Positions 32,724 through 39,377 of a stretch of 64,000 bases of DNA are shown here, in pieces. Under the pieces are notes generated by a model that was not told the DNA's origin, made no database searches, and worked only from the letters and a program-made list of their open reading frames with translations. Origin of the DNA: Craspedostauros australis (Eukaryota; Bacillariophyta; Bacillariophyceae; Mastogloiales; Achnanthaceae); NCBI GenBank assembly GCA_026770025.1, contig JAMXDE010000008.1, positions 186,001-250,000 of the forward strand. The letters run 5' to 3'. How positions within the stretch are numbered: position 1 is the stretch's first letter; the number at the start of each line of letters is the position of its first letter. Made by a program: the position numbers and the translations under genes.

Positions 32724-34004
32724 TCACCGCAGCCCCGATTGGTAGCTCTCGCAGTCCGTTTCGATCCCGCCAGTGCCCGTGAGGATCAAGGCGAGGATAA
32801 GGCCCCACACCGACGATACCGATACCGACAGGGCCTTGAAAAGGATAGCAACCGCACGTTGCGAGGGCTTGAAATGGAAGAATCCCATCCACAGCGATGA
32901 CGCGATCATGGAGGACAGCACCGCGGACAGCTTCCATTTCCGAACCGGTCGATGCTGCAGCAATGGCAAGAACCGCCGCGCTCCGTCATCGTCGGGTGCG
33001 CATTTGCGAAAGACGAAGCGCGTACCGGAGGTGCCACCCATGCCGATGCGAACTCGATGGTCAATGTAGGTCGTGTCCAGGACGACGGCGGATGTAGGGC
33101 CGAGGCGGAGGTTGAGAACGTTGCCCTGGTTCTTTGTGCGCGTGATGATGATGCGGGGCGAATCGAAGTACGCCTTGACAGCGCGCGGGGACAACGGCAG
33201 GAGCTTCGGCTTCTTCCTCGCCTTCTTGGATTTCTTGTCGCTGACAGCGGCGCTGCTCAAGTCCGTGCTATCGTCATCGCCGTCGTTGGATATGGGAACC
33301 GCGTCTCCGCGCAAAATGACGTTGATGGTGAACCAACTGAACAATGCACGCAGCGTGATGACATTGACCGCTTCTGCAACGCCGGTTGGGTCGCTGCTGC
33401 AGAGTCCAGTGGTGTTGTAGGGCAGGATGTGCTGGAGCGTGCGTTCTGTCGACAGCAACTTCTGCGCGAATCCATTCGAACGCGTCCATTTGCCACCCAC
33501 CGGGTTGTCATTCTCCTTCGTGGTCAGGGTGAACGCAACATCGTAGTAACCGAACAGCGGTGAAAACACGCTATCTCCCGAGGCTGTTTGGTTGTTGCTA
33601 CCTTGCTCAGTAGTCGTATTGAACACCTCCAATTCCTCAAGTTGCTTCACGATGCTCTCGACGGCCACTGATGTCGATGTTCCATTCGAAGAGCTTGATT
33701 TGTTCACGATCGCGCCCTCTCCGTTCTCGTTGCTGCCATCGACACCCCCGTCACCATCTTCTTCATTCCTATTGTTAGCATCCACCGTCTGCAACAGAAC
33801 GTCCACCAGAGCATCAGGTGTCAACGTCTCATCTCCACCACTTTTGCTGCTGGAAACGAAGAGTGGTTGCTGACGGGATGCGAATGGCAACGCCAGCGTT
33901 GCTGAAGATCGGCCAGAGCCACGAGCGAGCAGAGGCTGTTGGAATCCGGCGACGAAGCCAACTGTGGTCGAAACGATCAACGAGATCCACATAATGAGCC
34001 GCAT
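32724..34004 (-). CDS. Plastid lipid-associated protein (PAP/fibrillin)-like, plastid-targeted, 426 aa
   Basis: The chosen Met at 34004 opens a signal peptide (MRLIMWISLIVSTTVGFVAG) followed directly by FQQP, fitting the bipartite plastid signal of secondary plastids where cleavage leaves an N-terminal Phe. After a Ser/Asn/Asp-rich linker comes a fibrillin-like region: LFGYYDVAFTLTT, a Lys-rich loop, AVKAYFDSPRIII, then LGPTSAVVLDTTYIDHRVRI and GGTSGTRFVFRK. Two hydrophobic segments end the protein (MIASSLWMGFFHF and ALSVSVSSVWGLILALILTG), so it is probably membrane-anchored. Fibrillins shape plastoglobules and thylakoid lipids. The frame extends 86 codons further upstream, into the MITE-like repeat; I reject that extension because it would hide the signal peptide. 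Family call moderate. Confidence 0.7.
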   Translation of the reverse strand: MRLIMWISLIVSTTVGFVAGFQQPLLARGSGRSSATLALPFASRQQPLFVSSSKSGGDETLTPDALVDVLLQTVDANNRNEEDGDGGVDGSNENGEGAIVNKSSSSNGTSTSVAVESIVKQLEELEVFNTTTEQGSNNQTASGDSVFSPLFGYYDVAFTLTTKENDNPVGGKWTRSNGFAQKLLSTERTLQHILPYNTTGLCSSDPTGVAEAVNVITLRALFSWFTINVILRGDAVPISNDGDDDSTDLSSAAVSDKKSKKARKKPKLLPLSPRAVKAYFDSPRIIITRTKNQGNVLNLRLGPTSAVVLDTTYIDHRVRIGMGGTSGTRFVFRKCAPDDDGARRFLPLLQHRPVRKWKLSAVLSSMIASSLWMGFFHFKPSQRAVAILFKALSVSVSSVWGLILALILTGTGGIETDCESYQSGLR

Positions 34005-34105
34005 CGTACTGATCTGAATTGCGAAGGTACGAGTATCGTCGACACTGTGCATCACGAGTATGATAGGTATGGTGCGTGTGCGTGTATGAGACAGCTCTGT
34101 GAAGA

Positions 34106-34731
34106 ATATCCCTAATGAGTTTTTTGCTGACAAATTTGGCACATGTGCCAAATTTGTCACTTCTTTTGGGTTCGCATCAACAGCGCTCGTTGGCCTCCAC
34201 GTGTAGGTGGCAAGATCGCATGCCAGACCAACATGGTCCTCCAGTGTGGTGGCTTCTCTCATTGTTTAACTGGAACCTTCTGGCGCAGGCAATTTCCGCT
34301 GCAAACAAGGCCACATAAGGAATTCAGAACCCTAAGGACATACCCCATATATGAATTATTTATCAACAAGCCGGAACGCTTCGTGCATAGACACTGTTGA
34401 AAGACAATGATTGGATGAAAATCACAGACTTCGCTTGGAAATAGCACTGAAACAAGTTCCGTGAAGCATCGAATAGTCTCACCGTCGTCGGAAACCAACC
34501 GAAGCACAAACGCCAATCCTGGAGAAACAAAAATCAAAAGTTTTGAGGACACAAAAGCGCCTCTGCACGATAACGCTGTGTGGAAGTCGAAAAAACATTA
34601 TCATTACCACCTCAGCTGGCCGATGCGAACACACAGAATGTGACAAATGTGGCACATCGATCCAAATTTGTCACATCAATGTGAAGTGCCAAATTTGTCA
34701 CATCGGGGGCCCAAAATCTCATTAGGGATAT
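34106..34731. mobile_element. MITE-like element with inverted ends
   Basis: ATATCCCTAATGAG at 34106-34119 is exactly inverted at 34718-34731. Inside each end lies GACAAATTTGGCAC. The left end continues into a perfect 32-bp palindrome (34128-34159); the right end holds three related copies between 34636 and 34705. The 626-bp body has no gene. If the repeat proper starts at CCCTAA, the flanking ATAT on both sides could be the target duplication. Position is about 100 bases upstream of the fibrillin-like start codon. Confidence 0.65.
34128..34159. repeat. Perfect 32-bp palindrome
   Basis: Each arm reads TGACAAATTTGGCACA; the two arms meet at CATG with no spacer. Sub-part of the MITE-like element. 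Confidence 0.9.
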
Positions 34732-35151: not shown

Positions 35152-35907
35152 ATGGACGACGATACTGGCGAAGTCGGCCTCGCAAGCCTCGCGGACCATG
35201 CTGCAGAATCGAGTGACGTGATGGAGAAGATGACGTACCCATTCCGCCAATCCGAAGACGAATGGCGCAAGCAACTGACGGAGGAAGAGTTCCACGTTCT
35301 TCGGCAGGGCGGAACAGAGGATTGGGGCAAAGGCGAATTCTGTTCCTTCTTCCCCAAGTCTGGATACTTCGTCTGCAAGGCATGCGGTCACCCGCTGTAC
35401 TCGGCAGCATCCAAGTTCGCGGATGAAGGTTGGGATGCATACTCCAAGTGCTACTACAACAGCGGCCCTCATGTTGGCGTTCGAGAAGACAGCGAGGTCA
35501 GTGCCGACGTCACTCATGCTCGTACTCTATTGCTCTTCGCATGTCCGCGATTGTGACTATAATTGTGGCTGTGCTCGCTTCAGTCTGTGCTTTGTTGTCC
35601 ACACTGTGCTGTTCTACGCATGAATTCTTACCGGTGCTGTAACCTATTTACGCTGCTACTCACATCTCCCCTTCCCTTTCACATTATTCGACACACGAGT
35701 ATGGTGGCACAGGTCTGCTGCAACAACTGCGGATCACATCTGGGACACATCTTCCCAACGCACGAGGTTGAAAGTCGGCAACGGCACTGAATCAACAGCA
35801 TCTGTGTTGTCTACAAGGCATGCACAGATGATCTGCCCAAAGATATCACCAAGGAGGATCGGCTGCCAAATGCAACCAGCGATCACAGCTATCGGACGTA
35901 CTACTAG
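35152..35907 (+). CDS. MSRB: Methionine-R-sulfoxide reductase B, selenoprotein (UGA = Sec at 35788-35790; 2 exons)
   Basis: Exon 1 is 35152-35496 and exon 2 is 35713-35907, phase 0, intron GTCAGT...GCACAG. Read through one in-frame TGA, the product is 179 aa. Marks of MsrB are [20 protein letters not shown] (first zinc CxxC) and [15 protein letters not shown] (second CxxC and GHIF). The TGA falls in RQRH-U-INS, precisely where MsrB enzymes have RYCINS and vertebrate MSRB1 has RFUIFS, the residue that attacks the sulfoxide. Coding continues 38 residues to TAG at 35905-35907. A SECIS-like hairpin lies at 36063-36127. The start could instead be the Met at 35221. The enzyme repairs oxidised methionine in proteins. 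A standard gene call would truncate it at His before the UGA. Confidence 0.85.
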
Positions 35908-36062
35908 GTGTGGACAGCAGCATTGATGCCGTGGTTGCTCGAGCAAGCCGACCTCGACACCTTCCCAACATAATTGGGGCAGGGGCAGAGTACATGGACT
36001 GGACTCGACACTACCCTACTCTACTCCGTGACGTCATGCATTCAATGGTCATGATGCATTTG

Positions 36063-36127
36063 CTTCTCTCGAATGACGAAGGTGTGGACAAGGCTCGTCG
36101 CATGTGCACATCGGCTGAAGAGAGGAG
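36063..36127 (+). promoter_or_regulatory. Candidate SECIS element in the MsrB 3' UTR
   Basis: About 155 nt after the MsrB stop. Helix I pairs 36063-36070 (CTTCTCTC) with 36120-36127 (GAGAGGAG), eight pairs including one G-U. The quartet is TGAC at 36074-36077 opposite TGAA at 36116-36119, giving the tandem G-A pairs of the UGAN/NGAN core, preceded by an A at 36073. Helix II pairs GGTGTG (36081-36086) with CACATC (36107-36112) plus G78-C115, with two purine mismatches. The unpaired AA at 36090-36091 is 12 nt after the quartet, the expected distance. Folded by hand only. Confidence 0.7.
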
Positions 36128-37067
36128 AGGCATCAGAAAACAAGTGCATTTCCATTGGATGACCCATGATACCTTGGATTACTGTACCAACGCTCGAACC
36201 GCAAGCAACTTCGAAATCAGGCGGCGTTGATCATCCACCAAACACAGACAGGATGGCATCACACAAGGGACGCGATCTATCGTTGGCAAAGTAACGTTCC
36301 ACGTGAGAACATGCATCTCTACTGACGCAATGCGCTTCACACCCCGTCATGATTCAGAATCAACAGGCAAACCACGAGATTGTTTCAAATGCTGCAAGTT
36401 GATGCGGTGTGGAAGACGCTGTATGCCTTGCAAGCGGCGTTCGACAATGCGCAGGGGAAAGCATCAGCGGTCCCGCCCACAGCTCTTGTTTTCGTACGGC
36501 GCAATGCGCCCGCTTGGGCGCGATACCAGCATCAGTGGATAGGATCGTGCTGGATCGGTGCTAATCTCATGGATGTCATTTCAATATTCTGCCGCCATTC
36601 CGTTGGGACGACGGCGTTGCCGAGGACCAGCGTGCCCCAGTCATTGTCTTGTTGCGAACACAATAGACTTCGAGTAGTGTCACAAGTCTTCAATCGCATG
36701 AACCCCAACGGTAGATGAGAGGAGGTAGCTCCTTCAGTTTCCTTCGATCCATGTACATACGCATGATAAGAATGCGAGTGGCATCCCGATGCGGATTTGG
36801 TCTCGCCTTGTTGTTCCCACTTCCCATTGATTCTGTCACGATCCATTCGTGATTCACTGCACGACAGATCCATTCTGGTTTCGCGCCAACTTGTTTCTCT
36901 GCAAGACACGGGAATTTCGACGAAACGATCGAAGAAACGTCCAAGAATGTCAATGCTGACGTGGCATTTGTGCACCAATGTATTATTCTGATTAGTCAAA
37001 CTCCGTTGACACCATTGAGGACGTTAAATAATAGGTAATAACCGTTATTTCGGTTATTCATCGAAAC
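36128..37067. other. Intergenic, left border of repeat island
   Basis: No gene supported; a 155-codon minus-strand ORF (36532-36999) shows no domain. Near the right end AATAACCG and CGGTTATT form an inverted repeat (about 37037-37058) next to the 20-bp array. Confidence 0.4.
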
Positions 37068-37240
37068 AGTACTTTCACCTAATCCTGAGTACTTTCGTCG
37101 AGTCTGGAGTACTTTCACCTAATCCTAATTACTTTCGTCGAGTCTGGAGTACTTTCACCTACTCTCGAGTACTTTCGTCGAGTCTGGAGTACTTTCACCT
37201 AGTCCTGAGTACTTTCGTCGAGTCTGGAGTACTTTCACCT
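37068..37240. repeat. 20-bp tandem array, left copy
   Basis: About nine units alternate between GAGTACTTTCGTCGAGTCTG and GAGTACTTTCACCTANTCCT, so the higher-order period is 40 bp. Nearly the same array occurs in the same orientation at 41091-41256. Confidence 0.9.
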
Positions 37241-39377
37241 TTTTCTCTGCTCGTCTCGGCCGGTTGTGCGACATGTGTTGAGACCACAATTATCGGTACA
37301 GGGACTAAGTGGGAGCCGCGGTAAACCATGTAACTGATATTTCCACTACTTCTTCCCGAGTGCTGTCGGCTCACAAACGCGTCATCATCAGACTTGTTTT
37401 TGTCTTCATGGTGTCGCAAGAATACGTCACCATATGACGTCATTTCTCCAATTTGGTCGATGACATACCTCCGTCTCGGTATCAGGCCTTCGTTCAATTT
37501 GCCTCGTTTCTGTTCGGGTAGATGCGGGCTTCGTTAGTCGACTACAGGCTTGCTTGTCGCGATCTACGAGTCGTCATTTTGAGACTGCCCTGCTGCACAT
37601 TATGATCGCAATACAGCATAATACTCCATTCTGAATTAGACTACATGACTACCTACCGCCACTATCAAGGTGCTCGATGTTACAGGGCTTGCCGCATTCT
37701 ACTTGCGTTCATTCACCGCTCTTGTATGCATCAAATTAGTGAATGCTGTGCATTGTCTGATGGAACTTGCTTGTTTTGTTCCAACTTGTTGTCATCAACA
37801 GTCTTCATGATTCACCTTACCAATTCCTCACTGTGCAGCTTCAGACAAGAGCTTTTTGTGTACTTCTTGTTACAAGTCTCATCTAGAGATTGGAATCGAT
37901 GGTACACAAGAAGAGGAAAGACTTCTGTGCAGACAAAAGGATTCAGATCATGGTGACGGTCTTGCTGCCGCAAGTTGATGGTTGTTGCAAGGACAGGGTA
38001 CTCAATCTTCTGGCAGCGCGATAAAATGTCCATTGCACCACAGTCCAGATCATGATGATGGATGTGAGAAAAGCGGTGGCCCTACTTCCAATTGTCTTGG
38101 AGGTTGCTGCCTCATGCTGATGCTTGTGGTTGATCCCAGAAGTGGGGCCAAGAGGACCTGAAAGAGAGCCAATGGCACCTTAATGGCAACAATGCTGCAA
38201 CTCCTTTGTACAGCTGCTGCTGCCTTTGGTGTGCCGCCAACTATGCTATTCCACTTGCAAATTGCAACAACGCATTGTATTGGAAGCATAATTGGACTCA
38301 CAGAGAAGCACAAGGCAGATTGTGTACAATTCTGTATCAATCACATCGAAGATGTTGGGTTGTTTCAGAGTTTGGATGATGTTGTCCATGTATATCTGCA
38401 TTGTGCTTTATTCCGCACAGCTCTCTCCCTCGTGTTCTAGCGTAGTTGTGTGTTTCAATCATATCCTGAGCCAACTCGAACAATGAAATTGGTGTGTGTT
38501 ACAAGTGAATAGCTCAACGAGAAACGAAATTGAGGATGCATGAAAGCATAGTACCATAGACAAAGTATGACGCAAGAACAACAGTACTGTGAGATGGCTA
38601 CTTGCCTGAGTCAGGTGAACCTAAAGATGCAACGATCCTATCCAATGCATGCAGAACACAGGAATGCAGGAGCAACAGCATGGACATGAACACAGGTCAG
38701 AGTGTAAGCTCACAACTCTTAAGTTTGTAATAGCATTCAAGTTCCAACAGAGTTTACAGTGGATGCCTCCTTCTTGATCTGATCAATTGCTGAAGGATGT
38801 GTTCTTCCTACGATACTGCCAATTCTCAAGTCTAACAACGTAGATGAGAAGTGGTTCTTCATTCACTTGACCGAATGTAGGCCATGGTGTGTCATGGGTG
38901 AGGACCCTCAAATCCGATATGGAAACACAGCCATGACCACAATCCAAATGATGGTCTATCTTGCAGGAGTGCTGAAGTTGCAGCATGCAAGGACAAGATG
39001 ATTGCATTGAATCCCAGGAGTGCCATGCAGAACCATGCTAGGTACAATAGCGGCTTGCAGGAAAGCAATGGCAAATGCTCAAAGAGGGTGATGAGTGGAG
39101 CTTCCACCAGAACACAGGGATGTGCACATGGTACATTCCAAGACAAGGCGTTTGCAGGTCAAGTATCATGTATGCCAGTGTCGTCAGAGATGTGGTGGAG
39201 GTGAACATGGCAAGGGTCTGGCTCTAGCAAGGCATGGAGGCGATCGGTGGCGACGCCGACAAAACCACGCAACGAAGGGCGGCAGGCGAGCTCACTGACG
39301 CGCAGAGGGTGCTCGCCATGAAGCTCACGATGCAGGAGGCGGCTGTGGGAACACAGATGGCTCAGTAGAAGGCAAGG
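37241..39377. other. Repeat-island interior, no intact gene
   Basis: About 2.1 kb. Only short ORFs with no recognisable domain. Just before 39378 the frame upstream of the retroelement fragment shows protein-like text broken by stops (ELTDAQRVLAMKLTMQEA, then a stop at about 39367), so the fragment probably began further left. Confidence 0.4.

Follow-up and report, generated by a model that had tools for sequence, protein, structure and literature searches.

Structure of the gene

The window, that is, the whole 64-kb stretch of Craspedostauros australis DNA that was analysed, contains on its forward strand two exons that, judged by their domain matches, encode a methionine sulfoxide reductase B (MsrB) of the SelR family. 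Exon 1 (35152..35496) comprises 115 codons, and its translation gives the N-terminal part of the SelR domain (Pfam PF01641, 41.4 bits, E 1.6e-10). Exon 2 (35713..35907) encodes the second zinc-binding CxxC, an in-frame TGA, a tail and a terminal TAG; its SelR match (37.9 bits, E 1.9e-9; cut-off for the family, 24.9) was obtained with the TGA read as Cys and with a query that started 15 nt upstream of the exon. The predicted intron between them (35497..35712) is 216 nt long, is of the GT-AG type (GTCAGT...CACAG) and lies in phase 0, and joining the two exons restores the SelR domain. The joined exons encode 179 residues ahead of the TAG stop (35905-35907), with a possible inner start at M23 or M26. 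The first CxxC (C75/C78) is encoded by exon 1 and the second (C118/C121) by exon 2; a GSHLGH string is also present, and exon 1 encodes a further cysteine, Cys64, in the string GEFCSFF.

The TGA (35788..35790) is codon 141 of the joined protein. The initial annotation had placed it at the catalytic position of MsrB, followed by INS and 38 more open codons, and both its coordinates and this anatomy hold: the tail between TGA and TAG consists of 38 sense codons, starting INSICVVY, and, in the alignment with the MsrB structures 6tr8, 2l1u and 6q9v, the TGA falls opposite the catalytic Cys of their RYC/RFC-INS. Together with the homologue pattern described below, this alignment makes codon 141 a candidate selenocysteine (Sec) codon.

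Other features lie in the neighbourhood. A 626-bp MITE-like element (34106-34731) ends 420 bp ahead of the MsrB start; its terminal inverted repeats of 14 nt (ATATCCCTAATGAG / CTCATTAGGGATAT) are perfect, and TGACAAATTTGGCACA repeats lie inside it. In a tandem array at 37068-37240, a 40-bp unit (AGTACTTTCACCTAATCCTG...) is repeated 4.3 times. On the minus strand, a long open frame (32724-34265) includes MRLIMWISLIVSTTVGFVAGFQQPLL, which resembles a diatom plastid-targeting leader.

Selenocysteine machinery and selenoprotein genes of the genome

The 74.8-Mb genome, in which the window belongs to contig C6, was searched for components of the selenocysteine system. A tRNA-Sec gene was found at C19:1132677-1132762 (76.6 bits), with the anticodon TCA according to ARAGORN; the four further tRNA-Sec matches are all under the family cut-off. 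SepSecS gave matches of 239.6 and 105.7 bits on C4, with a profile that also scores above the cut-off in Bacillus subtilis, which served as control, and the single KTI12-type locus in the genome is either PSTK or KTI12. The tRNA-Sec gene and a Cys-type MsrB gene (C19:1134010-1134711), on opposite strands, are separated by about 1.25 kb.

Besides MsrB, the genome has at least seven TGA-bearing selenoprotein genes, in which the TGA stands at the Sec site: SelT (CISU), two SelM (CRGU and CGGU), two GPx (CLUG and SKUG), MsrA (MGUFWG) and SelD, also called SPS2 (LKGUACK). Three MsrB paralogues, on C23, on C6 at 2.05 Mb and on C19, belong to the same family as the window gene but have Cys at the catalytic position and no FC Cys. 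A TGA reported in the paralogue at 2.05 Mb of C6 proved to be intronic, the next exon reading RFCVNG. PF13911 had seven matches in the genome, none of them with an internal stop.

The hairpin downstream of the gene

A hairpin at 36063-36127 on the forward strand begins 155 nt past the TAG stop. Its helix I is formed by 36063-36070 and 36120-36127 (strands CTTCTCTC/GAGAGGAG), its quartet by TGAC (36074-36077) and TGAA (36116-36119), and its apical AA lies at 36090-36091; helix II includes A.G and G.G mismatches. Every part that the initial annotation had claimed (the helix, the TGAC/TGAA quartet and the AA) is present, and the arrangement fits the plan of eukaryotic SECIS elements, which consists of helix I, an AUGA/GA quartet, helix II and an apical AA. 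In animal MSRB1, the SECIS is located in the 3' UTR.

The search for a stable SECIS fold gave a divided result: the plan is present, but the fold energy is ordinary, with a z of -1.41 (17 of 200 shuffles as low) for the hairpin and of -1.14 for 36066-36130. One fold listing missed the hairpin and contained instead an overlapping alternative at 36052, and a first home-made SECIS scanner did not find it either. In a scan for the SECIS plan, the hairpin scored -26.7. When the 500 nt that follow the stop were shuffled with dinucleotides preserved, 4 of 1000 sequences did as well; over the whole window and both strands, three of 46 matches reach this value, the MsrB hairpin among them. In a second scan, 60 of 2000 shuffles were as good, and three better matches lay elsewhere in the window. 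The loosest scanner matched 2/7 selenoprotein genes and 3/11 controls, two of those controls below the MsrB energy; the strict one matched 2/7 selenoprotein genes, 1/11 controls and 5/18 antisense stretches, the MsrB hairpin being the lowest of all. Note that these scanners were tuned after the candidate had been seen, and that they found few elements of the other selenoprotein genes.

The Rfam model SECIS_1 (RF00031) had no match in the whole window, in the 3' region or in the hairpin alone. Neither did it match at six other selenoprotein loci of the genome (the SPS2 locus was outside that search), nor among the 133 scored of 967 genome candidates. Since the six other loci were missed too, this model cannot decide the question. 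The scanner, energy and Rfam tests, taken alone, make a SECIS hairpin no more than plausible.

An alternative accepts that the UGA is recoded but places the true SECIS at another site in the 3' UTR, with 36063-36127 forming either a C/D-box-like k-turn RNA or a mere chance fold. This would agree with the ordinary fold energy, with the matching of controls by the scanners and with a looser scan, which gave other SECIS candidates downstream (the best at -20.5). It would also agree with the Rfam results for the hairpin, in which the only weak matches were to three C/D snoRNA families, with E above 3; SECIS elements and C/D snoRNAs look alike because both carry UGA/GA k-turns. Against it, the stricter scan of 35908-37400 found no second SECIS match, and the comparison of selenoprotein genes described below points to the hairpin itself.

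A core shared by the selenoprotein genes

Eight selenoprotein genes of the genome (MsrB, MsrA, SelT, two SelM, two GPx and SPS2) were compared by counting every 7-mer within 900 nt and within 600 nt downstream of the stop. A single 7-mer, GAATGAC, is shared by all eight 3' regions, and it is absent from those of the 11 control loci; when MsrB is left out, it is still the sole 7-mer common to the seven others. The longer string GAATGACG occurs 3' of six of the eight genes and again of none of the controls. As background, GAATGAC has 13 copies in the 64-kb window, counting both strands. The motif was first spotted by eye in MsrB, MsrA, one SelM and SPS2, with no formal hold-out, and was then found in SelT, the other SelM and both GPx genes as well. 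The controls were loci without an active-site TGA (three MsrB, one GPx and seven MsrA; four more MsrA matches were left out), and their 3' regions start at the first in-frame stop past the match (for L002, a stop chosen by eye), an assignment that is wrong if an intron follows. The 3' region of one SelM gene (L016) was set by hand, from locus position 2150.

SPS2 offers a closer comparison. Downstream of its stop, this gene has a SECIS-like hairpin of textbook form, caught by both scanners, whose 5' core, the 12-mer GAATGACGAAGG, is identical to 36071-36082 of the MsrB hairpin. The SPS2 hairpin (L029, about 475 nt past the SelD stop) is very stable and has an unpaired ACC replacing AA. The 12-mer has 26 copies in the genome, as against 13 for the reversed pattern. 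Of these 26 sites, 20 were examined with a broader set of permitted apical dinucleotides; exactly two folded as SECIS in both scanners, namely those of MsrB and SPS2, and none of the 18 others did. In the fold listing, a hairpin is present at the GAATGAC motif of MsrA and of one SelM, the latter lacking an apical AA or CC; no well-formed hairpin was recognised at this site in SelT, the second SelM and both GPx genes (four of the eight).

Because the scanners were tuned post hoc, found few selenoprotein genes and matched controls, the case for a SECIS rests on the shared core and on the control with the 12-mer. The core common to the selenoprotein genes of the same genome makes the identification of the hairpin as a putative SECIS convincing, and we consider it improbable that the hairpin is a chance fold or a snoRNA-like structure with the SECIS elsewhere. 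The comparison also suggests that this genome has a SECIS core of its own, GAATGAC(G).

Homologues and the residue at the TGA position

The search for homologues of the MsrB protein found 487, of which the best 120 were listed and all examined. Among these 120, the sequence ends exactly one residue ahead of the catalytic position in 67, as would be expected from the earlier claim that automatic annotation cuts the protein at the UGA. At the catalytic position itself, four have W and 40 have C; four end earlier (P0050, P0069, P0072 and P0073) and five fall outside these classes. In the last group, P0037, P0053, P0078 and P0083 depart from the family sequence upstream of the catalytic position, and P0081 has C at this position and then unrelated sequence. 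A WDA(Y/F) signature is found in 80 of the best 120, comprising 66 that end before the catalytic position, four with W, one with C, the four that end earlier and the five others; conversely, 39 of the 40 C-reading homologues are without it. The named sources of these 39 are bacterial except for the brown alga Choristocarpus (P0075), and many are nameless. Among the close homologues, those with names come from the diatoms Cylindrotheca, Seminavis and Trieres.

One pair of entries is informative about the codon. P0035 (118 residues, ending GERQ) is an exact prefix of P0010, which continues W-INSICVQY; the two entries are a single gene translated under different codes, so that the codon in that relative is TGA. 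The remaining W forms and the remaining ends probably reflect TGA as well. Furthermore, the conservation beyond the UGA that the initial annotation asked for was found: when the window tail was compared with those of P0004 and P0005, none of 20000 shuffles was as good in either case, and the corresponding numbers were 4 of 20000 for P0047, 31 for P0010 and, for the Cys forms, 11 for P0060 and 2 for P0075.

Separately, P0080 combines a glutaredoxin domain (PF00462) with PF01641 and likewise stops at the catalytic position (NGERH), which suggests a Sec-MsrB fused to a possible reductant; it has a Cys before GW but lacks the FC Cys.

If the UGA were a true stop, the gene would encode a truncated or decaying MsrB with a fossil tail. 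The 67 homologues catalogued as ending here are what real stops would give; however, if 67 proteins whose bodies are conserved all stopped at this one residue, an otherwise constrained enzyme would be without its catalytic residue. In addition, conservation of the tail extends to P0004 and P0005, P0035 and P0010 reveal a TGA in one relative, and the organism has both selenoprotein genes and Sec machinery, so that a true stop appears very improbable. Least probable of all is an unseen splice form that skips the TGA to give a normal protein, for example through a short intron (GTTGAAAGT...CAACAG) inside exon 2: GT and AG dinucleotides do flank the TGA within 32 nt, but this is very short for an intron, and the catalytic position and INS would be lost, yet the read-through relatives keep both.

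Kinship and the resolving cysteine

A quick tree was constructed from 86 rows (81 of the best 120 matches, the window protein, the three paralogues and human MSRB1). Seventy rows labelled as stop or W, together with the Cys forms C19, P0075 and P0060, fall on one side of a branch with an SH-aLRT of 99; of these 70, P0037 and P0050 do not end exactly at the catalytic position. Human MSRB1 is outside this algal clade, but its branch is very long (8.19 changes per column), and for this reason an origin separate from MSRB1 is only suggested. The proposed alignment to MSRB1 and algal MsrB agrees at the Sec/catalytic position; no closest kinship to animal MSRB1 emerges from the tree.

Animal MSRB1 (selenoprotein R) likewise has Sec at the catalytic position (Sec95), two zinc-binding CxxC, and an FCSFF string with Cys4 that is the same as in GEFCSFF of the window protein. 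The two differ in that INS follows Sec in the window protein and IFS in MSRB1, and the window protein scores 30.7 bits against the MSRB1 structure 3mao, compared with 66.9 bits against MSRB2. The Cys MsrB proteins of bacteria and others (C-GWPSF / RYCINS) have in common with it the SelR domain, the zinc sites and the RxCINS surroundings, with Cys in place of Sec. Their resolving Cys is usually located just before GWPSF. In contrast, most of the window's clade has a non-Cys residue at that point, followed by GWDAY, and carries GEFCxFF instead.

Among the best 120 of the 487 homologues, Cys64 is present in 62 of the 67 stop forms, in all four W forms and in none of the 40 Cys forms; it is also found in all four that end earlier and in four of the five others. 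Inside or next to the algal clade, the position is occupied by V in P0060, D in P0075 and N in the C19 paralogue. The association of Cys64 with Sec is partly a matter of shared descent, since most Cys forms fall beyond the algal clade. P0060, the one Cys form within the algal Sec-MsrB clade, has no GEFCxFF Cys and has a Cys before GW. A swap of the resolving Cys is not strict, because seven stop forms (P0038, P0057, P0059, P0064, P0068, P0077 and P0080) have a Cys before GW like 2-Cys MsrB. C100 (57 of the 67 stop forms) and C117 (52 of 67) are other candidates for the resolving Cys. In the MSRB1 literature, Cys4 is described as the resolving Cys of SelR in the part of PMC3689823 consulted, and PMC11591284 gives Cys41, not Cys4. 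By analogy with the former, Cys64 may have the resolving role.

These data raise the possibility that the algal Sec-MsrB proteins form a clade apart from MSRB1, which would have gained Sec independently and moved its resolving thiol to the GEFCxFF Cys, converging on the FCSFF/Sec arrangement of MSRB1, and that this genome has GAATGAC(G) as its own SECIS core. We hold this reading only tentatively and think it rather unlikely, the seven stop forms with a Cys before GW having lowered our estimate slightly.

Proposed reading and relation to earlier reports

The gene is very probably a selenoprotein methionine-R-sulfoxide reductase whose UGA is read as Sec under the direction of the hairpin at 36063-36127. 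The reading of UGA as Sec, already proposed in the initial annotation, is supported by the catalytic position of the codon, the Sec machinery of the genome, TGA in at least one relative, the conserved downstream frame and the shared SECIS core. The anatomy, the codon position, the conservation, parts of the machinery, the hairpin and the shared core are evident from the sequences; the splice, Sec insertion at the UGA, MsrB activity and the role of Cys64 are predicted from them. After splicing, ribosomes would read UGA codon 141 as Sec using the tRNA-Sec of the genome, with the SECIS hairpin directing the insertion. Sec141 would then attack methionine-R-sulfoxide, the oxidised selenium would probably be resolved by Cys64 to a selenenylsulfide, and thioredoxin would reduce the Sec141-Cys64 bond. 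The source of this analogy is the mechanism of MSRB1, in which Sec attack, a selenenylsulfide with a resolving Cys and reduction by thioredoxin are described in the portions of PMC10298544, PMC7278666 and PMC3689823 consulted.

In 2007, MsrB selenoproteins seemed to be animal-specific, according to the excerpt of PMC2375036 used here. MSRB selenoproteins in algae were, however, already reported in 2020: the main text of PMC7539508 lists 42 selenoprotein families for algae, of which MSRB is one and 19 are also present in animals, gives 20 to 44 selenoprotein genes for diatoms and states that nearly 90% of algal genomes have MsrB in the form of a Cys or other homologue. That text, to which our comparison was confined, mentions neither an MSRB gene from a diatom nor a Cys64 motif. 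The algal list with MSRB is repeated in PMC9404770, as far as the consulted part of that paper goes, and no further paper describing a diatom MsrB selenoprotein was found among open-licence PMC papers. The gene described here thus adds a member to a reported family, and the added point is that the GEFCxFF Cys appears to track the Sec form and resembles the resolving Cys4 of MSRB1.

As catalogued, 67 of the best 120 homologues of this redox-repair enzyme lack the catalytic residue, and the GAATGAC core may be of use in the search for more selenoprotein genes in this genome. If the UGA is read as proposed, protein repair in the diatom would be tied to the supply of selenium, and the gene would provide a testable case of an MsrB that rewires its resolving Cys when it carries Sec.
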